Assembly (NCBI GenBank): GCA_028278405.1
Contig: JANQEK010000003.1
Location: 1 to 64,000 of the forward strand
Direction: 5' to 3'
Source of the DNA: Nitrospinaceae bacterium
GTDB lineage: Bacteria; Nitrospinota; Nitrospinia; Nitrospinales; Nitrospinaceae
DNA length: 64,000 bases
Shown here: positions 38,682-54,747 of the stretch, piece by piece
Position numbering within the stretch: position 1 is the first letter of the stretch
How the letters are laid out: each line of letters starts with the position of its first letter
Program-made: the position numbers and the translations under genes
Notes under the pieces: model-generated
Database searches by the model: none
Told to the model about the DNA's origin: nothing
What the model saw: the letters and a program-made list of their open reading frames with translations, nothing else

Positions 38682-38711
38682 TTGTTTAATAAGTCCCGCC
38701 GTGGATATAAT
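38682..38711 (+). promoter_or_regulatory. Candidate promoter of the HTH-PBP-SPOR operon
   Basis: TTGTTT (38682-38687), an 18-base spacer and a perfect TATAAT (38706-38711) lie 34 bases before the HTH gene. GAGGAGAG follows as its ribosome site. Confidence 0.55.
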
Positions 38712-38744: not shown

Positions 38745-39395
38745 ATGTCAATTTTGGCTCAGAATATGAAAATCATCCGACGCGAGTTGAAGTGCACGCA
38801 GTCAGCTATGTCCGATATTTTGAAAGTCGGCTTCAGGACCTATGTTCGTTATGAAGCAGGAGAAAGGGATGCGCCTGTCGCCGTTTTGGTAAAAATGGCG
38901 CGGCTGGGAAATATTTCTTTGGAACACCTGTTGACTCGGAAAATCGATTCGCTCGCTATTTTGCCGATGGATACGGAGACCCTGAACCTGAATCCCCCGG
39001 AAATCAAATCGGTTAATTTTCAAACCGGACATATTTCTTTCAAAAAGTTGTCCAAAGAAGGAATTCTGGCTTTGGATGAAGTCGAGAAAAAAGCCATTTC
39101 AGCTTACAGAAGAATGCCTCAGGATCTGAAATCGACTTTTCTCAAAGACTTGGAAAAAAACTATAAAGTCACAGGGGTAGGGCTTAAAGCCAGACGACCG
39201 GCTTCCGCAAAATCAGCCAGCTCTGTGAAGGCTTTGCCTCCGGAGACCAAGCCGACGGCGAAAAAGGAAAGTGGCAAAGGGGTTAAAAAGAAAGGAAAAC
39301 CCGGACGAAAAAAATTGGATAAAAAAGCCCTCAAGGAAAAAATCGACCGGCTGAAAATGATTACCAAATCCGTTCCGAAAATTACCGTGAGATGA
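38745..39395 (+). CDS. XRE-type HTH regulator with lysine-rich tail
   Basis: Residues 5-62 form an XRE-type helix-turn-helix (QSAMSDILKVGFRTYVRYEAG). A middle region of about 80 residues has no known fold. The last 75 residues are Lys/Pro/Ala-rich, reminiscent of histone-like tails, and could bind DNA non-specifically. The gene has its own likely promoter and starts a four-gene envelope operon, so it may regulate that operon. This is inference from position. Confidence 0.82.
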   Translation: MSILAQNMKIIRRELKCTQSAMSDILKVGFRTYVRYEAGERDAPVAVLVKMARLGNISLEHLLTRKIDSLAILPMDTETLNLNPPEIKSVNFQTGHISFKKLSKEGILALDEVEKKAISAYRRMPQDLKSTFLKDLEKNYKVTGVGLKARRPASAKSASSVKALPPETKPTAKKESGKGVKKKGKPGRKKLDKKALKEKIDRLKMITKSVPKITVR

Positions 39396-39398
39396 GTT

Positions 39399-40307
39399 TT
39401 GAAAAAAGCTGGAATTCTGGGAAATCTAAATGGCATCGTTTTTATCGTTGCTCTATTGGTGATTTTTTCCCTTGAGATTTTTGGCAAGGTGATCGAGCGG
39501 GGCGTCGGGCATTACCTCAAATGGGAAAATCATACGCGCCCTCAATTGGGGCGAATCTGGGAACGCGACCGCGAAAAGATCGTTGCCCAGAAGAAAATTG
39601 AATCCATTCTTTCTAACCTGAGTACTCAGGAACAGAGCTCCGAGTCGATCCAGTCCTTCAAGGAGTTGTTTGAAAAGCTCAACCCCTCCGATCCGCAGAT
39701 GGTCTCCCGCAAAAAGTTTCTACAACTGTATTTCGAATTTCCGGAACAGTTGGCCAACAAGATGGTTTCTCCCTACGAATTACTGGAAATCGATTCCAAC
39801 CGCGATTGGCAGCGCGTTTTGTTAACTCAGTTGGGTGAATGGGTCACCATCAGTTTTATCAATAATCAGAATTTCCCCATTCGGGAAGTATTTTTGTCTG
39901 CAGAAGGAATGGGGGAAAATCCCCTGAACCGCGACATTTTTAAAGGCACCTTGGAAGAAGCTGGGTTCGGACAAGCGTCAATTCTTACAATTGTCGATTT
40001 CATGAGAGTGATGAAAACCCTGGACCCGGATGCCCAAAAGGATTTGTTTCCAAATCCTTATTGGTTCTTCAGCAAAAACTATTATGTGGTTCGGGTCGGG
40101 GTGAAAGAGATTGAAGGCTCGGATGTCTATCCCCCTCCAGTTCGAATGGGCGTCGAGTACCAGAGTGACTTTTATACAGAAGTTTTGATCCTTCCCGTTC
40201 CGGCAGATATCTCAGAAAACCTGCTATCCCAAATTGAAATCCCCGTTTATGACGAGTCTGCCGAAGATCTCTCTCCCTTCGGTGATTATCAAGGAGATCT
40301 GAATTGA
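39399..40307 (+). CDS. Hypothetical protein with one N-terminal membrane helix
   Basis: The 302-residue protein has a single membrane helix (about residues 11-28) and a mostly helical outer part with Glu/Gln-rich stretches, then beta-type segments near the end. The start is TTG, three bases after the HTH stop, with GAGATGAG as a ribosome site; no in-frame ATG lies nearby. Its last four bases overlap the PBP start, so it is probably made together with that enzyme. It may be an accessory factor of the PBP. No family is recognised. Confidence 0.75.
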   Translation: MKKAGILGNLNGIVFIVALLVIFSLEIFGKVIERGVGHYLKWENHTRPQLGRIWERDREKIVAQKKIESILSNLSTQEQSSESIQSFKELFEKLNPSDPQMVSRKKFLQLYFEFPEQLANKMVSPYELLEIDSNRDWQRVLLTQLGEWVTISFINNQNFPIREVFLSAEGMGENPLNRDIFKGTLEEAGFGQASILTIVDFMRVMKTLDPDAQKDLFPNPYWFFSKNYYVVRVGVKEIEGSDVYPPPVRMGVEYQSDFYTEVLILPVPADISENLLSQIEIPVYDESAEDLSPFGDYQGDLN

Positions 40308-42379
40308 ACCGGCGCATTTTTGAAAAGATAGCCTTTTCACTGTTTACTCTGGTGATGGCGTTTTCTTTACTGGGATTCGGTCTTTATGTCGACTTGAAGG
40401 ACGATCTCCCGCAATTGCCCGACAGCCTCGATAAAATAAACTTGAGTCTGCCGACCGAAATCTATTCCTCACAAGGCAATGTGATCAAGGTTCTGGGTCA
40501 ACGTCACCCGGTGACTTTGGACGAAATTTCCCCACGGTTTACCGAAGCCATGATTGCGACTGAGGATTCCCGTTTTTACAGCCACAGCGGGGTGGATCAT
40601 ATCGGTTTAACGCGGGCGATGCTTCGCAATATTCGGGACATGAGGGTCTCACAGGGGGGAAGCACAATCACCCAGCAGCTTTCTAAAAATCTTTTCTTCT
40701 CGTTTGAAAGAAAGTGGGTCCGCAAGATCAAGGAACTGATGATCGCTCTTCAGATCGAGGCGACCTTTTCCAAGGATGAGATTCTGGAAGCCTATTGCAA
40801 TCAGGTTTATTTTGGAAGCGGTGCATACGGTGTCGAAGATGCATCGTTGATCTACTTCGGAAAGCGCGCGAAAGATTTGACTTTGCTGCAGGCCGCTTTG
40901 CTGGCGGGTTTGCCCAACTCTCCCAACAACGCAAACCCGTTCAATAATTTTGAACGGGCCATGAAGCGTACCCGGACGGTATTGAACCGTATGATCAGTT
41001 CAGGCTTTATCAGTCCTATCCAGATGGAAGAGGCTTTAGAGACCGATCTGGAATTGGCGCCGCGTCGGATTCAATCGAATCCCAATCAATACTTCATACA
41101 GTATGTGATCTCCAAGCTTGAAAAAGAATATGGCAAGGAATTTGTGCATTTTGGCGGCCTTAAAATTTTTACCACCCTGGATGCCCGATTGCAGAAATTC
41201 GCGCAACAGGCCGTGACCACCCATATGAAAAGTCTCGATAAACGGATGGGGTCCAATGAGGATGAAGAAATCCTTCAGGCTGCGGTAGTGGCATTGGAAA
41301 ATAAAACCGGAGCCGTTCGCGTGCTGGTGGGCGGGAGGGATTATGCCCAGAGCCAGTTCAATCGTGCTATTTCAAACAACCGAATGGCGGGGTCTTCCTT
41401 TAAGCCGATCGTTTATCTGGCTGCCATGGAAAACTTGGGGATCTCGCCCGCAACCGTGATGAAGGACGAACCGGTTGTTCTGAATATTTCAGAGGACAAA
41501 ACCTGGGAACCGAAAAACTTTAACGATGAATATTTCGGAGATTTGATCCTGAAGCGAGCCTTGATGAAATCGTTGAACGTGGTATCGGCGAAACTGGTGA
41601 ACGATCTCACTCCGGAACGCGTGATCAAAACCGCGCGTCAGATGGGAATCACCAGTCCCCTGGGTGAAAACCTGTCACTGGCGTTGGGAGCCACCGGGGT
41701 CTCGCCGCTCGAGATGGCGGGCGCATATAGTGTGATCTCCAACTTGGGAGTTTTGAACGAACCTTATCTAATCGACCGAATCGAGGACTTCAGGGGGAAC
41801 ACCTTGTATGAGCATTTCTATTTTGGTGTTCAACGGTTTTCGCAGAAATCCATTTACCCTCTTCTGGACATGATGCGCGGGGTGGTGGAAGAGGGCACCG
41901 GGAGGGTGATCCGGCGCATGGGCTTTCGCCATCCGGCAGGCGGTAAAACAGGAACCACTAATGACTACAAAGATGCCTGGTTCGATGGTTTCACCAAGGA
42001 TCTTTCCGTTTCAGTCTGGGTGGGTTATGACAGCAACAATTCTATGATCGACCGGAACGGAAGGGGTCTGACAGGCGGCAGTGCCGCCGCGCCGATCTGG
42101 GGATATTTCATGAAAAAAGGACTGAGAGGCAAAAACCCGGCAAACTTTCCTGTGCCTGAAGGAATCCGGTTTGTTGAAGTGGATTCCGAAACCGGTTATA
42201 TCGCCAATATCAGTACCAAGAAGACCATGAAAGTAGCGGTGAAAAATGATGTCGTGTTGACATTGCCGCCCACCACAGATTCCACCCGGGGATTCTTTTC
42301 CTTTGAAGACGAACCGGAGCCCGAACAAAACTTTCCAACTAACAATCGTCCCGAGGAAAATGTTTTACCAGAGCTTTAA
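40304..42379 (+). CDS. Class A penicillin-binding protein
   Basis: The 691-residue bifunctional enzyme builds peptidoglycan. It has an N-terminal membrane helix (about residues 5-27), a glycosyltransferase domain with catalytic Glu87 in TEDSRFYSHSG, and a transpeptidase domain with Ser364 in the SSFK motif and KTGT at 548-551. It is shorter than the PBP1A gene at 52.2 kb and lacks that protein's inserted OB-type domain. The start is TTG, inside the stop of the previous gene, with AAGGAGA upstream. Confidence 0.94.
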   Translation: MNRRIFEKIAFSLFTLVMAFSLLGFGLYVDLKDDLPQLPDSLDKINLSLPTEIYSSQGNVIKVLGQRHPVTLDEISPRFTEAMIATEDSRFYSHSGVDHIGLTRAMLRNIRDMRVSQGGSTITQQLSKNLFFSFERKWVRKIKELMIALQIEATFSKDEILEAYCNQVYFGSGAYGVEDASLIYFGKRAKDLTLLQAALLAGLPNSPNNANPFNNFERAMKRTRTVLNRMISSGFISPIQMEEALETDLELAPRRIQSNPNQYFIQYVISKLEKEYGKEFVHFGGLKIFTTLDARLQKFAQQAVTTHMKSLDKRMGSNEDEEILQAAVVALENKTGAVRVLVGGRDYAQSQFNRAISNNRMAGSSFKPIVYLAAMENLGISPATVMKDEPVVLNISEDKTWEPKNFNDEYFGDLILKRALMKSLNVVSAKLVNDLTPERVIKTARQMGITSPLGENLSLALGATGVSPLEMAGAYSVISNLGVLNEPYLIDRIEDFRGNTLYEHFYFGVQRFSQKSIYPLLDMMRGVVEEGTGRVIRRMGFRHPAGGKTGTTNDYKDAWFDGFTKDLSVSVWVGYDSNNSMIDRNGRGLTGGSAAAPIWGYFMKKGLRGKNPANFPVPEGIRFVEVDSETGYIANISTKKTMKVAVKNDVVLTLPPTTDSTRGFFSFEDEPEPEQNFPTNNRPEENVLPEL

Positions 42380-43895
42380 ATACATTTTAGTCCGGACTGG
42401 ACTGACCTTGTTTCTGGTCTTGTCTCTCGGCTATATATCGTTGTACTTCGTGCACGAAGTGGCTTTGCCCAACGTGTATTTCAACGATCTGTGGATCAAG
42501 TGGACGGTTGTTCTGGTTTGTCTGTTTTTCGGATTTGTGGTGTATGGGATTTTCGGCGAACACCGTTTTCTCAGCGCTTTGAACAGCCTGAGGCATATCG
42601 ATCTTAAAACAGTAGGACCGGAAGTTAGAAAACAGTTTCAAAGTTTGGTTGATTTCACCGGATCTTCCTATTTCCTGCCGGGGAAGGGTCGCGAACTGCG
42701 GGAACAGTTGATTCAGGACTATGCCGAATTTCTAATGAGTATCGGTTCCGAGGATCCGGAAGCTCTGAATGTTTATTTGAAGGCCTTCCTCCAGGATTCC
42801 AAGCAAACCCGTTTCCGCAACGTGTTAGTTTCCGCTCTGACCCGAAAGGAACAGTTGACCGATCAGGAAATCGACCTGTTGCTGGTGATCATGAAGACCG
42901 AGGGATATGAGGATCGGGAGCTGCTCAACCATATGATTACCGTTTTTCTGGCTCAGGAGTGGTTCACAAACAAGTCAGAGCCTGTATTCCTGAAAGCGTT
43001 GCAGTTGAAAACAGGTCAGGAAGATAAAATTATCAGTTTTATGCTTCCCTATTTGCTGGATAAAAAGAGAACCGATTATCTGGCTGTGAACTTTTATCTG
43101 GAATCTTTATCCTCTCTGCCCGAGGATCAACGTGAAACGATAACTTTCCTGGTGAGTACCAGTTACTGTGAAGAGCGGTTCAAAGTGCTTGATCCTGATT
43201 TGCATGCCCGGTGCAAGCAGGTTTTTGATTCCCTGGAAACCCAAACCCAGGATCGCCTGCTCCGTGTGGCGAAAGATGCCAAAGTTTCCGAACAATGGAA
43301 AAAGGTCAAACTGTTCCACTCGGATGATAAACAGGCTTTGGAGCGGTTAAAGGTCTACACCGGGTTGAGTCCCACGTTCTGGCAGGTTGTTGGTAAAAAG
43401 ATAACAGGGCAGGGGGGCGGTGTTTTCAATCTGATCAAAAAAGTGGTTTTCAAGGTATTTGACGGGTTGAATTTTATGGGGAACTTGAATACGGCTTCCA
43501 AGCTGCTGCTGACAGGACTCATTCTGGGAGGGATGACCTTTGCGGCGATATCTGTAGATTGGAAAGCCCTGTTCTCGGTCCCTCAGCCCGTTCCGACCGC
43601 TCCTCCGGAGGTGGCGGTTCCTACAAAACAAGTGTTCACCCTTCAGGTGGCTGCCGTAAAGGGCAAGAGTCAGGCCGACGCCACTGTTCGAAAACTCAAA
43701 AAAAAGAAGGTGGAAGACGTTTATGTCGTGAAAATCCCACGTAACGAGGGAGGATTCTGGTATAAAGTGCGTGTAGGAAAATTCCGCGAACGTGAAATGG
43801 CGGAAAAAGTAGCTATCATTTTGATGAACCAGAAAAAGATTCGTTCCTATTTCATCATTGCGCTGGATGACCGGCCTCCGACCCAGCCCCAATAA
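42360..43895 (+). CDS. SPOR-domain membrane protein
   Basis: The 511-residue protein has two N-terminal membrane helices (about residues 9-29 and 42-61), a long cytoplasmic helical region of about 300 residues with TPR/HEAT-like character, a third membrane helix (about 382-400), and a periplasmic SPOR domain (about 421-505). SPOR domains bind denuded septal peptidoglycan and mark cell-division proteins. ATG 42360 lies inside the end of the PBP gene with GAGGA just upstream, so the two are coupled. A role in directing the PBP to the division site is inferred. Confidence 0.85.
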   Translation: MFYQSFKYILVRTGLTLFLVLSLGYISLYFVHEVALPNVYFNDLWIKWTVVLVCLFFGFVVYGIFGEHRFLSALNSLRHIDLKTVGPEVRKQFQSLVDFTGSSYFLPGKGRELREQLIQDYAEFLMSIGSEDPEALNVYLKAFLQDSKQTRFRNVLVSALTRKEQLTDQEIDLLLVIMKTEGYEDRELLNHMITVFLAQEWFTNKSEPVFLKALQLKTGQEDKIISFMLPYLLDKKRTDYLAVNFYLESLSSLPEDQRETITFLVSTSYCEERFKVLDPDLHARCKQVFDSLETQTQDRLLRVAKDAKVSEQWKKVKLFHSDDKQALERLKVYTGLSPTFWQVVGKKITGQGGGVFNLIKKVVFKVFDGLNFMGNLNTASKLLLTGLILGGMTFAAISVDWKALFSVPQPVPTAPPEVAVPTKQVFTLQVAAVKGKSQADATVRKLKKKKVEDVYVVKIPRNEGGFWYKVRVGKFREREMAEKVAIILMNQKKIRSYFIIALDDRPPTQPQ

Positions 43896-43936
43896 CCGAA
43901 GTTCTCTTTTAAAGGTTCCTTCCTTACTATTTGACC

Positions 43937-45268
43937 ATGGCAAATATTCTAGAGCTCCGTACTGAGAATATTAAAAAGTTTGTTGCGGACCAGGATATTG
44001 TCACCCTGCAACCGGAAGTGGATCGGTGTCATCAGGATTTGGAATCCGGCCGGAAAGAGGGTGCGGAATATCTGGGTTGGCTTCACCTCCCATCGCAAAC
44101 AGCGCCTGACCACCTCAAGGAAATTGAGCAGTCTGCAAAATGGATTCGGGATAATTGTGAAGCCTTTGTCTCTGTAGGGATCGGTGGTTCTTATCTGGGA
44201 GCCAAAGCTGCAATTGACTTTGGAAGCCATGCTTTTTTGAATCAACGTTCTTCCATTGCACGCGGAGGACCGGAAATTTATTTTGCCGGTCAAAACATCA
44301 GCTCCGATTACCTTCACGATTTGCTGGAAATTCTGGAAGATAAAAAAGTTTGTCTAAATGTTGTTTCCAAGTCTGGAACGACGACCGAACCGGCCATTGC
44401 GTTTCGCCTGCTCAAGCAATTTATGGAGAAGAAATACGGGTCCGATGAACTGCGCAAACGGATATTCGTAACCACCGATCCGGAAAGGGGTGCTTTGAAA
44501 CAATTGGCGGGTGAAGAGGGATACCGGTGTTTCGTGATTCCGGATAATGTGGGAGGCCGGTATTCGGTGTTGACCCCGGTCGGCTTGCTGCCCATTGCAG
44601 TGGCGGGAATGGATATTGGGGAATTAATCGCCGGTGCCCGGGAATGTGAGAACCTTGCCACTAGGCATACTGGCTTGGACAGCAATCCTGTTTATCGATA
44701 TGCGGTCATCCGCAATGTGTTGTACCAAAAGGGGAAAACCATTGAGCTCATGGCCGCGTTTCACCCGGCCCTGCAAACTGTGGTAGAGTGGTGGCGTCAG
44801 TTGGCTGGGGAGAGCGAAGGCAAAGAAGCCAAGGGTATTTTCCCGGCAACCGCCGAATACACGGCCGATTTACATTCCCTGGGACAGTGGGTCCAGGAAG
44901 GCAACCGGATCCTCTACGAGACCTTTCTCAGAGTGGCATCTTCCGGACATTTCATGGAGATTTCCGAGTCTCCCGGGAATCAGGACGGCCTCAACTATCT
45001 GACCGGTCGTAGCCTCGATGAGGTGAATGAAAAAGCCTGGCAGGGAACCGCCCGGGCTCATCTTGAAGGCGGCGTGCCCAACATGACCCTGACAATGAAA
45101 GACCGGAGCGCCTATTCACTGGGCTATCTGTTCTATTTTTTTCAGCGAGCCGTTGCCATGTCGGGCAGTTTGATGGGGGTCAACCCGTTCGACCAGCCGG
45201 GAGTGGAGTTTTATAAAAAAAACATGTTTCAACTTTTGAACAAACCGGGGTATGAGAAGGGAAAATAA
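43937..45268 (+). CDS. pgi: Glucose-6-phosphate isomerase
   Basis: The 443-residue enzyme interconverts glucose-6-phosphate and fructose-6-phosphate. Signatures visible are SVGIGGSYLGAKA (about 75-87), SKSGTTTEPA and the conserved Glu/His region LHSLGQWVQ. It is the short (about 450 residue) type seen in Bacillus. ATG 43937 is two codons into the longest frame, which opens with TTG. Its stop overlaps the tal start by one base (TAATG). Confidence 0.96.
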   Translation: MANILELRTENIKKFVADQDIVTLQPEVDRCHQDLESGRKEGAEYLGWLHLPSQTAPDHLKEIEQSAKWIRDNCEAFVSVGIGGSYLGAKAAIDFGSHAFLNQRSSIARGGPEIYFAGQNISSDYLHDLLEILEDKKVCLNVVSKSGTTTEPAIAFRLLKQFMEKKYGSDELRKRIFVTTDPERGALKQLAGEEGYRCFVIPDNVGGRYSVLTPVGLLPIAVAGMDIGELIAGARECENLATRHTGLDSNPVYRYAVIRNVLYQKGKTIELMAAFHPALQTVVEWWRQLAGESEGKEAKGIFPATAEYTADLHSLGQWVQEGNRILYETFLRVASSGHFMEISESPGNQDGLNYLTGRSLDEVNEKAWQGTARAHLEGGVPNMTLTMKDRSAYSLGYLFYFFQRAVAMSGSLMGVNPFDQPGVEFYKKNMFQLLNKPGYEKGK

Positions 45269-46518
45269 TGGGGACAATCAGTAAAGATTTGAGTGAAACA
45301 GTTCATCGCATCGCCTGCCAGGAGATCAGTTCGGAGAAGCCTTCCAAAAAATACGAGAGCGATCCTCTGCTTGCCCGTCTGAGAGAACTGGGTACAGAGT
45401 TGTGGATCGATACCGGGGAGTTGGAACTGGCCCAATCGATTTGGAAAAATGAATTAACAGCTCTCACCACCAACAACACGTTAGCCAATCAAGTGGTGCA
45501 GAGTGGGGTGATGGACGATGTGATTCAGGAAACCGTGAGCAAACTCGGAGAAGCCGCCTCCGGTTTGAGCCGGGATGAACTGGTGATGGAAGTTGGGTTC
45601 GTGATCAACTGCCGCATCGCATTGAGACTGGTTGAAGCCTTCAAAGTAAAGGTCAGTGTCGAACTGCATCCCGCCATTTCCCGGGATCTCGAAAAGAGCG
45701 TGGAATACGGCAAGCGGTATTTTCGAGTTTGCCCTGAGTATTTTATTGTCAAGGTTCCCCTGACGCCGGAAGGCCTGCTGGCAACCCGGCGGATACGCCA
45801 GGAAAACATCCCTGTGAATTTTACTCTGGGTTTTTCTGCGCGGCAGAATTACTTGACCGCCCGGCTTTCCAATCCCAATTATGTGAATGTCTTTCTGGGC
45901 AGGCTCAACGCCGTGGTTGCGGACAATGCGGCCGGCACGGGTGAATGGGTCGGCGAAAAGGTTACGTTGCATACTCAGAGTACCGTGAGTGAAGTTCGAA
46001 ACGAGCATGCCGACATCAATACCCGATTGATCGCCGCAAGTATTCGCAATGGCGATCAGGTGGCGACTCTGGCGGGACTGGACGTTCATACGATTCCACC
46101 TAAGGCGATGAAAGAATTTCAGGAGTCGGGCCGTATCCCGGATCAGATCAAGCCGACAGAAGGAACTGCCTTAAACCCCAATGTGGATTCTGCGCACGAA
46201 TGGAGTGCCCGGGTGGCGAAACTCTGGGATGTGGATGGTGATTTCCGAAAGGCGGTTGACCGTCTGATGGCCCGTAACGATCTGAGCCAGCTCTCCGGCG
46301 AAAGCCTCGTCAAATTTTTCGAAGAAAATAATTTGGACCTGTTTCACCCGTTTACCGGATCGGACCTGAAGAAAATCCAAAGCGACGGTAAAATTCCAAA
46401 ACTAGCCGACTGGCCAGGTTCCATTGCGCTGGACGATTTGATGACCCAATCCGCACTGCAATCGTTCGCCAAGGACCAGAGCGCGCTGGATGCAAGGATT
46501 GAATCCTTTCTTAAATAG
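45268..46518 (+). CDS. tal: Transaldolase, long type
   Basis: The 416-residue enzyme transfers a dihydroxyacetone unit between sugar phosphates in the pentose phosphate pathway. The Schiff-base Lys lies in FIVKVPLTPEG (about residue 155), with the usual TLGFSARQ and Asn/Asp-rich strands around it. It is longer than the E. coli enzyme (317), resembling the mycobacterial-type family, with an extra C-terminal helical region after about residue 330. It is translationally linked to pgi and followed nine bases later by glk. Confidence 0.9.
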   Translation: MGTISKDLSETVHRIACQEISSEKPSKKYESDPLLARLRELGTELWIDTGELELAQSIWKNELTALTTNNTLANQVVQSGVMDDVIQETVSKLGEAASGLSRDELVMEVGFVINCRIALRLVEAFKVKVSVELHPAISRDLEKSVEYGKRYFRVCPEYFIVKVPLTPEGLLATRRIRQENIPVNFTLGFSARQNYLTARLSNPNYVNVFLGRLNAVVADNAAGTGEWVGEKVTLHTQSTVSEVRNEHADINTRLIAASIRNGDQVATLAGLDVHTIPPKAMKEFQESGRIPDQIKPTEGTALNPNVDSAHEWSARVAKLWDVDGDFRKAVDRLMARNDLSQLSGESLVKFFEENNLDLFHPFTGSDLKKIQSDGKIPKLADWPGSIALDDLMTQSALQSFAKDQSALDARIESFLK

Positions 46519-46527
46519 GATCTTCGC

Positions 46528-47517
46528 ATGATCCTTACGGGGGATGTTGGAGGGACCAAAGTCAATCTGGCTCTTTTCGAAATCAAAAAGGGAATCCCCA
46601 GCTTATCAGCGGAAAACAATTACACCAGTCGAGATTATTCCAGTCTGACCCACCTGCTTGAACGGTTTCTTAAAGAAACACAACCGAAACTCACCCACGC
46701 CTGCTTTGGAGCGGCGGGACCCGTGCACGAAGGCCGGTGCCGTGTTACTCATCTACCGTGGAAAATCGACGTTGATGAATTGAAATCTCTCTTGGGAATC
46801 GATTCCGTTTCACTGATCAATGATCTGGCAGCGCTTGCCTGTGCGGTTCCTCATCTGACCCCAGAAGAATTGGAAATGATTCAGGAAGGTCAGCGAGATT
46901 CCAAAGGGAATATTGCCGTTCTGGCTGCGGGGACCGGATTGGGGCAGGCATTTCTCATTTCGGAACGGAAAGAGGGCTACCGGGTAGTGGAAACCGAAGG
47001 GGGGCAATGCGATTTTCCTGCCCGCAACGCACTGGAAATCAGCCTTAGAGAATATCTCAGCCAATTGTCTTCTCGGGTTTGTATTGAAGATGTTTTATCC
47101 GGACCCGGTTTGATCCGAATATTTGAGTTTATGAAGGAGCGCGATCACGCCACCGAACCCAAATGGTTGGCGGAAGAATTTGAGCAGGAAGATCCGGCGT
47201 CGGTGATTTCCCGTAACGGTTTGTCCAAAAAATTTGTATCCTGTGAGAACGCTCTCGAGTTATTTGCATCCATTTATGGCGCAGTGGCAGGTAACCTGGC
47301 GCTTCAGGTTATGGCACGGGGCGGGGTATACATCGGCGGAGGGATCGCCCCCGAAATATTGCCTCTTTTGAAATCGGACTTATTCTTGGAAGCGTTTCGC
47401 GATAAGGGGAAATTCAGGGATTTCATGGAGCAGGTCCCGGTGAAAGTTATTACGAACAAAAGGGCTCCGCTGCTGGGAGCAGCCCATTTTGCGCTGGGAG
47501 AAAATAAGATTCAGTGA
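46528..47517 (+). CDS. glk: Glucokinase
   Basis: The 329-residue enzyme phosphorylates glucose with ATP. The ATP-binding GDVGGTKVNLALFE motif is at residues 5-18, the LINDLAALA segment near 93, and the phosphate-2 GTGLGQAF motif near 137. It is of the GlkA/E. coli type, not the ROK type with a zinc CxCGxxGC motif. Together with pgi and tal it forms a sugar-phosphate block. Confidence 0.94.
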   Translation: MILTGDVGGTKVNLALFEIKKGIPSLSAENNYTSRDYSSLTHLLERFLKETQPKLTHACFGAAGPVHEGRCRVTHLPWKIDVDELKSLLGIDSVSLINDLAALACAVPHLTPEELEMIQEGQRDSKGNIAVLAAGTGLGQAFLISERKEGYRVVETEGGQCDFPARNALEISLREYLSQLSSRVCIEDVLSGPGLIRIFEFMKERDHATEPKWLAEEFEQEDPASVISRNGLSKKFVSCENALELFASIYGAVAGNLALQVMARGGVYIGGGIAPEILPLLKSDLFLEAFRDKGKFRDFMEQVPVKVITNKRAPLLGAAHFALGENKIQ

Positions 47518-48788: not shown

Positions 48789-50186
48789 ATGAGTCGTATT
48801 TTAGTCGTCGACAATGAAAAAAGCATGCGGGAAATGCTTTCCATTGCCCTGGAAAAAGAAGGGTATGAGGTGGAAACCGCCCGCAACGGCGAAGTTGCGG
48901 TCGAAATGGTCGAAAAAGACAGTTACGATGTGGTGATTACCGATATTAACATGCCCCGTTCCAACGGCATTGATGTTCTGGATGCCGTTAACCGTGTCCG
49001 TCCGGAAACACCGGTTATTATGATGACCGGTTACGCCTCTCCCGAAACTGCTGTCGAAACCATGAAGAAAGGCGCTTACGATTATATTACCAAGCCTTTC
49101 AATATGGAGGATTTCAAGCTTGTCATTCGTAATGCTTCTGAAAAGAAGCAATTGACCGAAGAAAATACCTACCTTAAATACGCTCTTAAAGACAAGTATC
49201 AGTTTGGCAACATCATCGGCAAAAACGAGGGCATGAGGAAGGTGTTCGATTATATCGAAAAAGTCAGCAACAGCAATGCAACGGTTCTAGTCGGGGGTGA
49301 AAGCGGTACCGGAAAAGAGTTGGTCGCCAAAGCGCTCCACTATAACAGTTCCCGAAAAAACTATCCGTTTATTTCCATTAACTGCGGTGCCATGCCGGAA
49401 AACTTGTTGGAAAGCGAACTCTTCGGACATGAAAAGGGCGCTTTTACCAGCGCGGATTCCACCAAAGTCGGATTGATGGAAGTAGCGAATAAAGGAACGT
49501 TTTTTCTGGATGAAGTTTATGATGCTCCACTTACGATTCAGGTCAAACTGTTGCGGGTCCTGCAGGAGCGGGAAATAACGCGGGTCGGAGGCACCCAGCC
49601 CATCAAAGTCGATCTGCGTATTATTGCGGCCACCAACCGGGATTTGGCCGAAGGGGTCAAGCAGAAGGTGTTCCGCGAAGACCTGTATTACCGCTTGAAA
49701 GTTATTGCGATTGAATTGCCTCCTCTTCGCAGGCGGAAAGAGGACATCCCACTGCTGGTCCAGCACTTTATCAACAAGTACAACGAACAGCATGACAAGG
49801 ACCATAAGATTCAGGGGATCCAGCCAGATGCACTGAAGTGCCTGGAGAATTACGAGTGGCCGGGCAATATTCGTGAATTGGAAAATACGATTGAACGGGC
49901 AGTGGTTTTGGAAGCAAACGACTTGATTGGCGTATCCAGTCTTCCGGAAGAGATATTTCAGGCGCCTACTCCTGCGGACAACCTGATACCCTCCATTGCA
50001 GGAGACGATCCCATAGATTTGGAGAAAACCCTGGACAACATCGAAAAGAGCATGCTTCTGGGAGCTTTGAACAAAACAGATGGAATGATTAACAAAGCCG
50101 CCAAACTTCTGAACCTGAGCTTTCGTTCGATGCGCTATCGGGTTAAAAAGCACAATATCAACGCCAAATCCGAAGGAAATGAGTGA
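48789..50186 (+). CDS. Sigma-54-dependent response regulator (NtrC/PilR family)
   Basis: The 465-residue regulator has a receiver domain (phospho-acceptor Asp52), an AAA+ domain with Walker A GGESGTGKE at 169-177 and Walker B with DE at 241-242, and a Fis-type helix-turn-helix (RSMRYRVKKHNI at the end, a PilR-like ending). The sigma-54 contact loop is GAFTSA (217-222) rather than GAFTGA, and the following Walker B region reads DEVYDAP. No histidine kinase gene is adjacent, so the partner is unknown. It begins eight bases after argG. Confidence 0.92.
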   Translation: MSRILVVDNEKSMREMLSIALEKEGYEVETARNGEVAVEMVEKDSYDVVITDINMPRSNGIDVLDAVNRVRPETPVIMMTGYASPETAVETMKKGAYDYITKPFNMEDFKLVIRNASEKKQLTEENTYLKYALKDKYQFGNIIGKNEGMRKVFDYIEKVSNSNATVLVGGESGTGKELVAKALHYNSSRKNYPFISINCGAMPENLLESELFGHEKGAFTSADSTKVGLMEVANKGTFFLDEVYDAPLTIQVKLLRVLQEREITRVGGTQPIKVDLRIIAATNRDLAEGVKQKVFREDLYYRLKVIAIELPPLRRRKEDIPLLVQHFINKYNEQHDKDHKIQGIQPDALKCLENYEWPGNIRELENTIERAVVLEANDLIGVSSLPEEIFQAPTPADNLIPSIAGDDPIDLEKTLDNIEKSMLLGALNKTDGMINKAAKLLNLSFRSMRYRVKKHNINAKSEGNE

Positions 50187-52249
50187 GCCTGTTCCCACGG
50201 CCACATCCTATGCCGGATCCCCTTCAAATGATACGTCTTTACTTCGCAATACTCTGCTGGTTGTTTGTTGCAGTGGCAACTGTTTCTGCCCAGGATTTTG
50301 AATCCATTCAGGGCGCAGACACTTTGTTTGCCAAAGCAGAGACTTTATATCATGAAGACAAGTTATTGGACTCCCGCGGTTCCTATGAGGATTTTCTAAG
50401 GGCCTTTTCAACGGATTCCAGAGCTCCCAAAGCCGCCATGCGGTTGGGGCAAATTGATTACAAGAATAAGTCCTACCTTTCGGCTCTCAGGCACTATCAG
50501 TATTTTCTGGAAACTTTTCCTCATTCCACGCTGGCTTACAGTGTCAAACTGGATATGGGCCGATGCTATTTTGAATTGGAACGCTATCCCGAAGCTGAAA
50601 AAGTGCTACGGGAAACGGTCCAACTCAATCCTGATCCGGTTCAAAAATGGCAAGCCTTTGTTTACCTGGGATACATTGACGACAAACGTTTGGAGCTGGA
50701 AAAGGCTTTTAAAAAATTCAAACAAATTAAAGAAAGAAGCCCTTATCCGGAAATCAAACAGGAAGCCACCGATTACATTAAAGGGATTGTCAATGAAAAA
50801 CTAGACAAGAAACAATTGGTATCCCTTTCCAAGTCTCTGGGTTCTGAATTTCCTGCCGATTTGATTTTGCAAAGGTTGATTTCAATTTACAGGGTCGAGC
50901 GCGATTTGGGGAATTATCAAATTGCTCTGGAGAATTTCAATTTCCGTTTTCCCAGCCATGAGTTGAAAGAATACTACGAAAAATTACTGATCCGATTGAA
51001 AACCGATCCGAATAGGGTCATACGAATCGGCGTGGTACTCCCTTTATCGGGGAAGCGGGCGATTGTAGGACAGCGGGTTCTGCAGGGAGTTCAATTGGCG
51101 ATTAATCAGCTGTCGGCGCGGGATAAAAGTCGGCTGGAAATTGTGGTGAAAGACTCCGGGTTGGGTCGGGAGATTGTCCAGGTGGTGGAAGAACTGGCTC
51201 AAGACCCTAATGTCATCGGTATTATCGGGCCGGTATTGACGAAGGATGTGGAAAGTATTATTCCCATTATTGAAAAGTATCAATTGCCTATTTTTACTCC
51301 CACCGCTTCGACTCACGGGCTGGCGGAAAAAAGTCCTTACATCTTTAGGAACGCGCTTACCAAGGAATTGCAGGCCAGTTATCTGGCTCGGCATGCGGTC
51401 AACGAACTGCAGTTGTACCGCTTTGTGGTGGTCTACCCCACCGAGACCTATGGGGAAATCATGCGGAAGGTGTTTGAGGATGAAGTTCGCTCCTTCGGCG
51501 GGCATATTGTCGAATCTATACCCTACGAGCGGACGCAGACGGACTTTAGAAAGCAAATTTTAAAGATCGGTGGAATGGCCGATGACCGGTTGAAAGCCCG
51601 GATTCAGAGACATATCAAGCGAGGCACACAGCCCCGGCCCTTGAACGATAAGGGTATCAAGTCCAGGCCACTGGTCGAAGGCGGGCTTTATGCAGACGAC
51701 CAGGTGGAAGCCCTGAAGGTTGCCTTGGAATTGAATTACGATGCGATCTTTATTCCCGGATCTTACGATAAAGTAAGGTTGATCGTACCTCAGCTTGCTT
51801 TTTACAATATTGAAGAAGTCTTGTTGATGGGAGGCAATGGCTGGCACTCCCGCGAATTAGTGGATAGCGCCCGGAATTATTTAAAGAATGTTCTATTTGT
51901 AGACGGGTTTTATGCAGATTCACGAAACGAGAGAACAGTTAAATTTGTGGATATGTTCCTCTCCACGTTTGGGCAGAACCCTACCATTCATTCGGCTCAA
52001 TCGTACGATATTGCAAATGTGTTTTTGAAGTTCGTCCTGGAGGAAAGGGCTTACAACCGTCTGGATGTGTTGGAAAAATTACGTGCTCTTAAAGATTATC
52101 CCGGTGTGTCTGGGGATACTACGATTTTACCCTCCGGCGACTCTCACAAATCCCTCGTCAAGTTGACCGTGAGAGAGGGTGATATCGCCGAAGAACTTCC
52201 CGAAAATGCGGTCGTTCAACCCCTGGAAGATGAAGATGAAATCCCCTAA
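50183..52249 (+). CDS. TPR plus periplasmic-binding-fold protein, LpoA-like
   Basis: The 688-residue secreted protein has a signal segment (about residues 16-36), TPR-type helices (about 40-270) and a type I periplasmic-binding (Peripla_BP_6/LivK-like) domain from about residue 278. This TPR plus binding-protein layout is that of LpoA, the outer-membrane activator of PBP1A in E. coli. Unlike LpoA, no lipobox cysteine is seen, so it may be soluble. GTG 50183 overlaps the regulator stop and has AAGGA upstream; ATG 50210 is an alternative. It converges on the PBP1A gene. Confidence 0.82.
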   Translation: MSLFPRPHPMPDPLQMIRLYFAILCWLFVAVATVSAQDFESIQGADTLFAKAETLYHEDKLLDSRGSYEDFLRAFSTDSRAPKAAMRLGQIDYKNKSYLSALRHYQYFLETFPHSTLAYSVKLDMGRCYFELERYPEAEKVLRETVQLNPDPVQKWQAFVYLGYIDDKRLELEKAFKKFKQIKERSPYPEIKQEATDYIKGIVNEKLDKKQLVSLSKSLGSEFPADLILQRLISIYRVERDLGNYQIALENFNFRFPSHELKEYYEKLLIRLKTDPNRVIRIGVVLPLSGKRAIVGQRVLQGVQLAINQLSARDKSRLEIVVKDSGLGREIVQVVEELAQDPNVIGIIGPVLTKDVESIIPIIEKYQLPIFTPTASTHGLAEKSPYIFRNALTKELQASYLARHAVNELQLYRFVVVYPTETYGEIMRKVFEDEVRSFGGHIVESIPYERTQTDFRKQILKIGGMADDRLKARIQRHIKRGTQPRPLNDKGIKSRPLVEGGLYADDQVEALKVALELNYDAIFIPGSYDKVRLIVPQLAFYNIEEVLLMGGNGWHSRELVDSARNYLKNVLFVDGFYADSRNERTVKFVDMFLSTFGQNPTIHSAQSYDIANVFLKFVLEERAYNRLDVLEKLRALKDYPGVSGDTTILPSGDSHKSLVKLTVREGDIAEELPENAVVQPLEDEDEIP

Positions 52250-54747
52250 AAGGTGTTTTCTTCCAGCGGATTGATTCCTGAAGTATTCTTGTCAGGAAGA
52301 TTCTCGTTTAAAAATACTTCAAATCGTCCATCCGGATCATCAAAGGTGGTTTCCTCTCCGGTTTTCTGATTTACTTTGATGTAGGTCACATCGTTAGGAA
52401 TGGGAAAGCTTTTAACGGGTACATTCTTTAACGCTTCCCCCATGTACTTGAGCCAGATAGGTATCGCTGTCCGAGTCCCAGTCTCATTCACTCCCAATGA
52501 TTCATCTTCATCTTTTCCGACCCAAACGCCGGTGACCAGCTCTGGAGAGAACCCAATAAACCATGCATCGTTATAATCGTTGGTGGTTCCGGTTTTCCCT
52601 GCAATGGGACGGTGTAAGGTTTCTTGAATAATGTGAGCTGTTCCGTGTTGAACCACGCTCTCCATCAGGCTCGTGATCATAAAGGCCATTCCCGTGGAAA
52701 TGACGGGTTCTCCTACAGGCTCGTAGGTATAAAGAATCTCATCGCTCCGGTCCTTGATGTAACGGATAGGCCCCGGAGGTAGACGGACTCCCTGGTTCGC
52801 GAAGATGGAATAGGCGGATACCAGTTCGTACAAGGTCACACCGGATGAGCCCAGAGCAATGGACAGGTTGTTCGACAGTGGAGTCGTGATCCCCAAACGG
52901 CGCGCCATCTGAATGGCTTTGGGGACACCCGTATTTTGGAGAAGCTTGATGGTTACTACATTGCGGGAATGGGTCAGCGCTGTCCGCAGAGAAGTGGGGC
53001 CGTAGAATTTCTTTTCAAAGTTGACCGGTTTCCATTTACCGAAAGTATCCTCTTTTTCCTTGAAGATAATGGGTGAATCGATAACGATGCTTGCCGGTGT
53101 GTAGCCGTCTTGAATCGCTGTAGCGAAAATAATAGGCTTGAAGGCCGAGCCGGGTTGACGTATCGCTTGCGTGGCCCGGTTGAATTGACTTTTGCTGAAA
53201 TCATAACCGCCGACCATCGCCTTGATGTAACCGGTGGAAGGTTCCATACTGATTAAACCTGCTTGCGCTTCGGGCTCCTGTTCCAGACCCAGGTCCCAAC
53301 CGCCTTTTTCCAACGCTGCCAGAATTTTAACCTCGATGAGATCACCCTTCGACAAAGCTTCCTTGGGGTCGGTGATTTGATGGTATTTGCCATCCAGTTT
53401 CGAATTGGGTTCGCGAGCCCAGTCCATATTTTCCAGGCGTATGATTCCCTGGTCGCCTCCAAGATAAACGGTAACTTCTTCGTCTTTGATCTGAGTAACG
53501 ATGCCTTTGACCAGCTCACCTTCCTTAAAAGGAATAATGGGGAATGAGGTCTCGGTTTCCGTTTCAGCAAGCGGATTGTTGGTCGCTTCGCCGGGTGTGA
53601 GATTTTCTGCATCGCTGGCTTCGGACTCGTTTTCTCTGGTTCCAGCGGACCGTTGGTTGAGTTCCATCAGCAGGTTGTTGAGAACCTGGATGTCTTGATC
53701 GGGATTAACCCTGTCCAGGGGACCGCGGTATCCATAACGTTTGTCCGCCAGTCGCAAGCCGTCAATCAAGGCTTGTTCTGCAGCTTTCTGCTTCTCCAGG
53801 TTCAGGGTGGTGTAGATTTTCATTCCATCCTGGTAAAGTTGTTTGCTCCCGTAATTCTCTTGAATGAACTGGCGGATATGCTCAATAAAGTAAGGGGCCT
53901 TATTGAGCATGCCTTTGACTTCTCCCAATTCAAGAGGTTCTGACAGGGCTGCATGCATTTCCTCTTCGGTAATAAAACCATGATATTCCATACGGCGGAT
54001 CGCATGGTCCCGCCGCTTCAATGCCTTGTTGAGATTGTTGTAGGGGGAATAATGCGTCGGAGCCTTGGGTAAGGAAGCGATCATGGCGCATTCACTGATC
54101 GTTAGATCCTTTAACTCTTTTCCGAAATAGGTGCGCGCTGCCGCCGCGACTCCATAACTGCCGTGCCCGTAATAAATCTGATTCAAATACATCTCCAGGA
54201 TTTCATCCTTACTGAAAATCAACTCCATTCGAACCGCCAGGATAGCCTCCCGAATCTTTCGTTCGAACTTTTTCTGGGGCGACAAATACAGGGTTTTGGT
54301 CAGCTGCTGGGTGATCGTGCTGGCGCCTTCCACCACGTGGCCCGCTCGATAGTTAGCGATCGAGGCCCGAATAATGGCCTTGGGGTCGATTCCCAAATGG
54401 TAGTAAAAACTGGAATCCTCCACTGCCAAGGTCGCTTGTTTCAAGCGTAGGGGAATCTGGTCGAACCCCACCATGATCCGCTTTTCAATAAAGAACTCCG
54501 CGATCAATTCGTCCGTGTCCGAATAGACCTTGGTGATGATATTGGGCTGATATTCCTTGAGAGCCCGGACATCTGGGAGGTCGCTGGAGTATTTGAAGTA
54601 CAGGATGCCAGCCCCTGTAAAACCGATTACGAGGCAGCTCAGAAAGCCCCATAAAGTGACTTTCAGTAAAATACTTTTCCAGGTTCTGGGTTTATGACTC
54701 CGGTTGAAACCTGGAGTCACTTTTTGATTTTTTAGAATATTTTTCAT
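52246..54747 (-). CDS. mrcA: Class A penicillin-binding protein, PBP1A type
   Basis: The 833-residue bifunctional enzyme has an N-terminal membrane helix (about residues 27-51), a glycosyltransferase domain with Glu110 (EDSSFYYHLG), a central OB-type insert (about 390-490, with a Glu/Ser-rich linker before it) and a transpeptidase domain with Ser534 (SAFK) and KTGT at 718-721. The insert is typical of PBP1A. Its stop codon overlaps that of the convergent LpoA-like gene by four bases, leaving no space for a terminator. Confidence 0.95.
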   Translation of the reverse strand: MKNILKNQKVTPGFNRSHKPRTWKSILLKVTLWGFLSCLVIGFTGAGILYFKYSSDLPDVRALKEYQPNIITKVYSDTDELIAEFFIEKRIMVGFDQIPLRLKQATLAVEDSSFYYHLGIDPKAIIRASIANYRAGHVVEGASTITQQLTKTLYLSPQKKFERKIREAILAVRMELIFSKDEILEMYLNQIYYGHGSYGVAAAARTYFGKELKDLTISECAMIASLPKAPTHYSPYNNLNKALKRRDHAIRRMEYHGFITEEEMHAALSEPLELGEVKGMLNKAPYFIEHIRQFIQENYGSKQLYQDGMKIYTTLNLEKQKAAEQALIDGLRLADKRYGYRGPLDRVNPDQDIQVLNNLLMELNQRSAGTRENESEASDAENLTPGEATNNPLAETETETSFPIIPFKEGELVKGIVTQIKDEEVTVYLGGDQGIIRLENMDWAREPNSKLDGKYHQITDPKEALSKGDLIEVKILAALEKGGWDLGLEQEPEAQAGLISMEPSTGYIKAMVGGYDFSKSQFNRATQAIRQPGSAFKPIIFATAIQDGYTPASIVIDSPIIFKEKEDTFGKWKPVNFEKKFYGPTSLRTALTHSRNVVTIKLLQNTGVPKAIQMARRLGITTPLSNNLSIALGSSGVTLYELVSAYSIFANQGVRLPPGPIRYIKDRSDEILYTYEPVGEPVISTGMAFMITSLMESVVQHGTAHIIQETLHRPIAGKTGTTNDYNDAWFIGFSPELVTGVWVGKDEDESLGVNETGTRTAIPIWLKYMGEALKNVPVKSFPIPNDVTYIKVNQKTGEETTFDDPDGRFEVFLNENLPDKNTSGINPLEENTF

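Follow-up and report, generated by a model that had tools for sequence, protein, structure and literature searches.

Which of four closely packed genes in a Nitrospinota genome form a conserved unit, and what does the membrane protein encoded directly ahead of its class A PBP do? The activation and placement of class A PBPs are known mainly from a few model bacteria, with unrelated partner proteins. The genes lie in a window of 64,000 nucleotides (the whole stretch of DNA that was analysed) from a genome of 3.16 Mb and 95% completeness (G000), whose nearest named relatives are Nitrospinaceae/Nitrospina MAGs. An earlier note on this DNA had read them as a self-regulated unit for septal wall synthesis, comprising an HTH regulator, a new accessory membrane protein (MP), a class A PBP and a SPOR protein. 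The open reading frames, coordinates and spacing (3, −4 and −20 bases) that it gave agree with ours (Table 1), and Pfam returned the domains that it had named: HTH_3, Transgly and Transpeptidase, and SPOR.

Table 1. Coordinates of the features discussed, as positions in the window
Feature	Position	Strand	Details
Putative sigma-70 promoter, TTGTTT-18-TATAAT	38682..38711	+	Sequence; kept in four genus members
HTH_3 (XRE-type) DNA-binding protein	38745..39395	+	216 aa; Pfam PF01381, E 5e-8
MP, single-span inner-membrane protein	39399..40307	+	302 aa; TM ~10–28; TTG start; C-terminal domain predicted periplasmic
Class A PBP, PBP1A family	40304..42379	+	691 aa; PF00912, E 8e-65; PF00905, E 2e-30; TTG start overlapping MP stop
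SPOR protein	42360..43895	+	511 aa; three TMs; PF05036, E 5e-11
TPR/LppC protein, LpoA-like, periplasmic-binding fold	50183–52249	+	Over Pfam LppC cut-off (PF04348)
Second class A PBP, with OB domain	52246–54747	-	PF17092

We fetched 50 loci of the home order and annotated them with profiles. All 28 good-quality genomes from this order contain MP. It was directly followed by the PBP gene at 49 of the 50 loci, mostly with a 4-base overlap, and the SPOR gene came next at 47; the exceptions were a genome in which PBP-SPOR is unlinked from MP (G013), a locus at which no SPOR gene was called (L125) and one contig end. Among the best relatives of the PBP was one from Desulfobacterales, at a locus where a homologue of MP lies upstream, and a profile search found MP in 31 of 146 Desulfobacterales genomes. 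MP, PBP and SPOR genes are collinear at 29 of these 31 MP-bearing loci, without the HTH gene. One exception (G107) has MP and PBP-SPOR each at the end of a separate contig; in the other (G132) the PBP is interrupted, with its two pieces far apart, which suggests that the gene was rearranged internally or misassembled. The halves of the G132 module PBP lie at C1:1668401–1669387 and C1:3457861–3458856, 1.8 Mb apart in one contig. The earlier note had staked its reading on synteny in relatives, and the gene row is indeed kept through the order and in a second phylum. Among the flanking genes looked for, none was common to the loci of both phyla. The core is a three-gene module, MP-PBP-SPOR, kept in two phyla.

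The two consecutive TTG starts (39399 and 40304) to which the note had drawn attention are credible, backed by the order-level junctions. The last four bases of the MP gene are TTGA at 44 of 52 such junctions, indicating that the overlap of the PBP TTG start with the MP stop is conserved, while the MP start codon across the 52 is GTG in 34 and TTG in 14. At the level of sequence, the MP-PBP junction points to translational coupling.

MP has a single TM segment (residues 10–28) that follows a positive N-terminus, and the remainder of the protein is therefore predicted to be periplasmic. It had no Pfam match, no NCBIfam match and no convincing sequence match in the PDB. Our alignment of the family (A3) holds 38 sequences from two phyla at ∼20–25% identity, with twelve invariant residues (E26, E33, L40, N44, G51, W54, A63, F107, R139, L185, R232 and E253) that are densest just past the membrane (E26 to A63, seven of them). 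The AlphaFold model of MP is moderate (pLDDT 73, pTM 0.41), and a fold search with it against the PDB gave no match at E ≤ 0.001, a result in which a distant match could be missed given the moderate model. The top fold matches (a thioesterase and lipocalins) had TM-scores near 0.1 and are not credible; Pfam matches of single members to G6PD_N (three) and SAUGI (one) were weak, occurred in no other member and were set aside as chance.

Known activators of class A PBPs offered no home for the family. LppC or TPR domains were found in none of the 38 members scanned, which together with the N-terminal TM segment separates MP from LpoA/LppC activators; compared with LpoB and LpoP it showed no Pfam match and, with the moderate model, no PDB fold match. 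LpoA, LpoB and LpoP of Gram-negative bacteria and MacP, CozE and CopD of pneumococcus resemble MP in being accessory proteins dedicated to one class A PBP, the last three being compared by name only. The three Lpo proteins, however, sit in the outer membrane as lipoproteins and have other folds, whereas MP carries a TM at its N-terminus and matches neither Pfam LppC nor any other family in sequence. The suggestion that 39399–40307 encodes a new accessory membrane protein thus stands: it belongs to no described family and co-occurs strictly with one PBP subtype. The novelty of the gene row lies in the MP family and in how strictly it pairs with a single PBP lineage, rather than in the HTH regulator.

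The PBP of the triad belongs to the PBP1A family, with matches to PF00912 and PF00905 and to TIGR02074 over its cut-off. It carries EDSRFYSHSG and KTGT motifs and an N-terminal TM, and has no OB domain. In a tree that also included 36 other class A PBPs and the second PBP of the window, the module PBPs grouped into a single clade across the two phyla (SH-aLRT 100). The MP and PBP trees concur on the main groups, and MP and PBP distances are correlated (Spearman 0.82 in Desulfobacterales, 0.47 in the home order), as is expected of co-inherited genes, the correlation alone not implying interaction. Common origin would be the simplest reading of the module.

Searching the 146 Desulfobacterales genomes with a module PBP from Desulfobacterales divided them cleanly, with 31 at 53–100% identity and all others at ≤ 42%. 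Compared by name, the 31 genomes that carry this PBP subtype proved identical to the 31 of 146 that carry MP, although the counts lack phylogenetic independence (the bearers in Desulfobacterales may represent a single clade or a few) and can be biased either way by MAG incompleteness. Within the home class, both MP and the PBP subtype are present in all eight MP bearers checked (G000, G012, G013, G017, G026 and G061–G063), including at 48–51% identity in the three that belong to other families (G061–G063); all ten genomes without MP (G067–G076) also lack the PBP subtype and have the other PBP type only. MP and PBP are unlinked yet both present in three genomes (G013, G062 and G063). PBP and SPOR are linked without MP in G013 and no SPOR gene adjoins the PBP in G062 and G063, indicating that the SPOR link is looser than that between MP and PBP. 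In every genome checked for both, MP is found only together with the one PBP subtype. No MP was found in 28 genomes of several phyla with other class A PBPs, a set that has no positive and so shows little.

The window contains a second class A PBP gene, which lies tail to tail with an LpoA-like gene, the two overlapping by 4 bases. This pair resembles the triad in that a class A PBP sits beside a putative PBP regulator. It differs in that the second PBP has an OB domain and an LpoA-like neighbor, whereas the triad PBP is without an OB domain and pairs with MP. That this bacterium encodes each of its two class A PBPs next to a different putative partner would fit a partner role for MP. The genome also has one match resembling a monofunctional transglycosylase.

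The third member of the module scored 43.3 bits against a cut-off of 21 for the SPOR domain, which aligns with solved SPOR domains. Binding to denuded glycan and a septal location are expected of proteins with this domain. The AlphaFold model (pLDDT 78) comprises three membrane helices, an all-helical middle and the SPOR domain; in sequence order, two N-terminal TMs are followed by an alpha-helical cytoplasmic region (∼87–307), a third TM (∼378–398) and the C-terminal SPOR domain. Its best structural matches are solved SPOR domains, with weak matches to helical-repeat proteins. The Desulfobacterales partner, as read from its sequences, is built in the same order, with two hydrophobic stretches at the N-terminus and a third between the helical region and SPOR.

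In E. coli, DamX and DedD are inner-membrane SPOR proteins that work with the class A PBPs PBP1A and PBP1B, and DamX has a large, likely folded cytoplasmic domain (PMC7642682). In topology, which is what was compared, the SPOR protein may be of DamX type: its helical cytoplasmic part leads through a TM to a SPOR domain in the periplasm, although two extra TMs precede it at the N-terminus. It differs from DamX and DedD in having three predicted TMs and a helical-repeat-like cytoplasmic region, and in being co-encoded with a PBP and MP. The analogy supports a septal role, by likeness rather than as proof for these proteins.

We consider it probable that one class A PBP subtype has MP as its dedicated partner, and that the SPOR protein ties the pair to the septal wall. 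MP would be anchored in the inner membrane by its one N-terminal helix, beside the PBP's own anchor, with its periplasmic domain (∼270 residues) most likely binding the PBP and controlling its activity or stability; MP would then be an inner-membrane partner of the PBP and probably a regulator. The SPOR protein, with its DamX-like build, most likely fastens MP-PBP to denuded glycans where the cell divides and connects the pair with the cytoplasm. Here we infer the physical binding of MP to the PBP, the direction of regulation and the septal site. More tentatively, and with a little less than even confidence, MP may be the first of a new class of class A PBP regulators that act from the inner membrane, unlike the outer-membrane Lpo proteins, and that a single PBP lineage requires in both Nitrospinota and Desulfobacterales, with the co-encoded SPOR protein giving the septal address.

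A search of the literature found no description of the MP-PBP-SPOR arrangement. As a putative partner, MP represents a conserved and undescribed family matched one-to-one to a PBP lineage, and the module concerns phyla with little wall biology (Nitrospina-type bacteria and Desulfobacterales). The three co-encoded proteins and the invariant residues of MP make the partner role directly testable.

The same pairing could reflect the making of the PBP rather than its catalysis, with MP as a chaperone, membrane-insertion factor or stability factor. A folding partner would be equally compatible with the one-to-one co-occurrence and with translational coupling of MP ahead of the PBP; the large conserved domain predicted to be periplasmic exceeds what a minimal insertion factor needs, a point that is not decisive, and we judge such a role unlikely. 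It is decidedly improbable that MP has an enzymatic or wall-sensing role of its own and is simply carried along with the PBP in a wall operon: the invariant polar residues E26, E33, N44, R139, R232 and E253 could form a site, but no enzyme family matches MP convincingly, and a gene that was only carried along would be expected to part from the PBP after unlinking, whereas the two are still paired in G013, G062 and G063. Synteny among relatives, based here on MAGs, can also last by inertia. We nevertheless give next to no credence to clustering without functional meaning, since the row recurs in two phyla with MP at ∼20–25% identity and no looked-for flanking gene in common, the genome sets are identical and the pairing survives unlinking.

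That the four genes form a self-regulated septal unit under HTH control, as first proposed, is to our minds as improbable as an enzymatic or wall-sensing role of MP. The HTH_3 assignment is sound (33.3 bits against a cut-off of 23), the gene lies directly upstream at 45 of 50 order loci, and the Lys-rich tail that the earlier note had described is present (20 K and 5 R in the last 71 residues, with a GKPGRKK motif); a GRPGRKK-like motif recurs in this tail in most of the home order, the tail being shorter in one genus. The consensus-like promoter fared less evenly. A TATAAT box does lie in front of the row with an 18-base spacer to TTGTTT, and comparison of upstream regions indicated that four genus members keep TTGTTT/TTGTCT...GTGGATATAATA. 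It did not stand above chance in a blind scan, however, which gave 9 promoter-like sites against 9.9 expected, and the −35 box of the candidate matches at 3 of 6 positions.

Against HTH control, the gene is absent from the Desulfobacterales MP loci. Within Nitrospinota it was not found anywhere in three genomes (G015, G037 and G059) and is gone from G013, where only a paralogue is left; it is absent at loci L134, L147 and L143, decayed to a remnant in L133 and frameshifted in its tail in L164 and L148, and the losses and frameshifts at these loci leave MP-PBP-SPOR in place. A paralogue also sits elsewhere in the genome (L243:3392–3994, contig C36 of G000), matching the N-terminal 141 residues of the HTH protein at 49%; it adjoins a MutL-like gene, and such a second copy is present in most genomes of the order. 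No operator for the HTH protein was found. The description of the unit as self-regulated was accordingly not borne out, although in this genus, which keeps the promoter region, the HTH protein may still act on its own gene. The HTH gene is an optional, lineage-specific addition that lies outside the conserved core.

No convincing terminator was found on either side of the four-gene unit. One relative (L006) has a good-looking hairpin with a T-run in the interval from hemB to HTH, but the copy in the window folds worse than shuffled sequences, and we do not claim a terminator there. In many relatives (L132, L135, L139, L142 and others) hemB was not found between the radical SAM gene and HTH, and a gap of ∼1 kb stays. 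An Rfam search of the window gave no matches. Downstream of SPOR, PGI follows after ∼41 bases, and transaldolase and glucokinase after 2 and 9 bases, so that the PGI, transaldolase-like and glucokinase genes occupy 43896–47517 with the short gaps seen in this genus; in many other genomes the sugar genes lie 1–3.5 kb from SPOR or are absent beside it. In this genus the four-gene unit is probably open at its downstream end, and the sugar genes may share a transcript with it.
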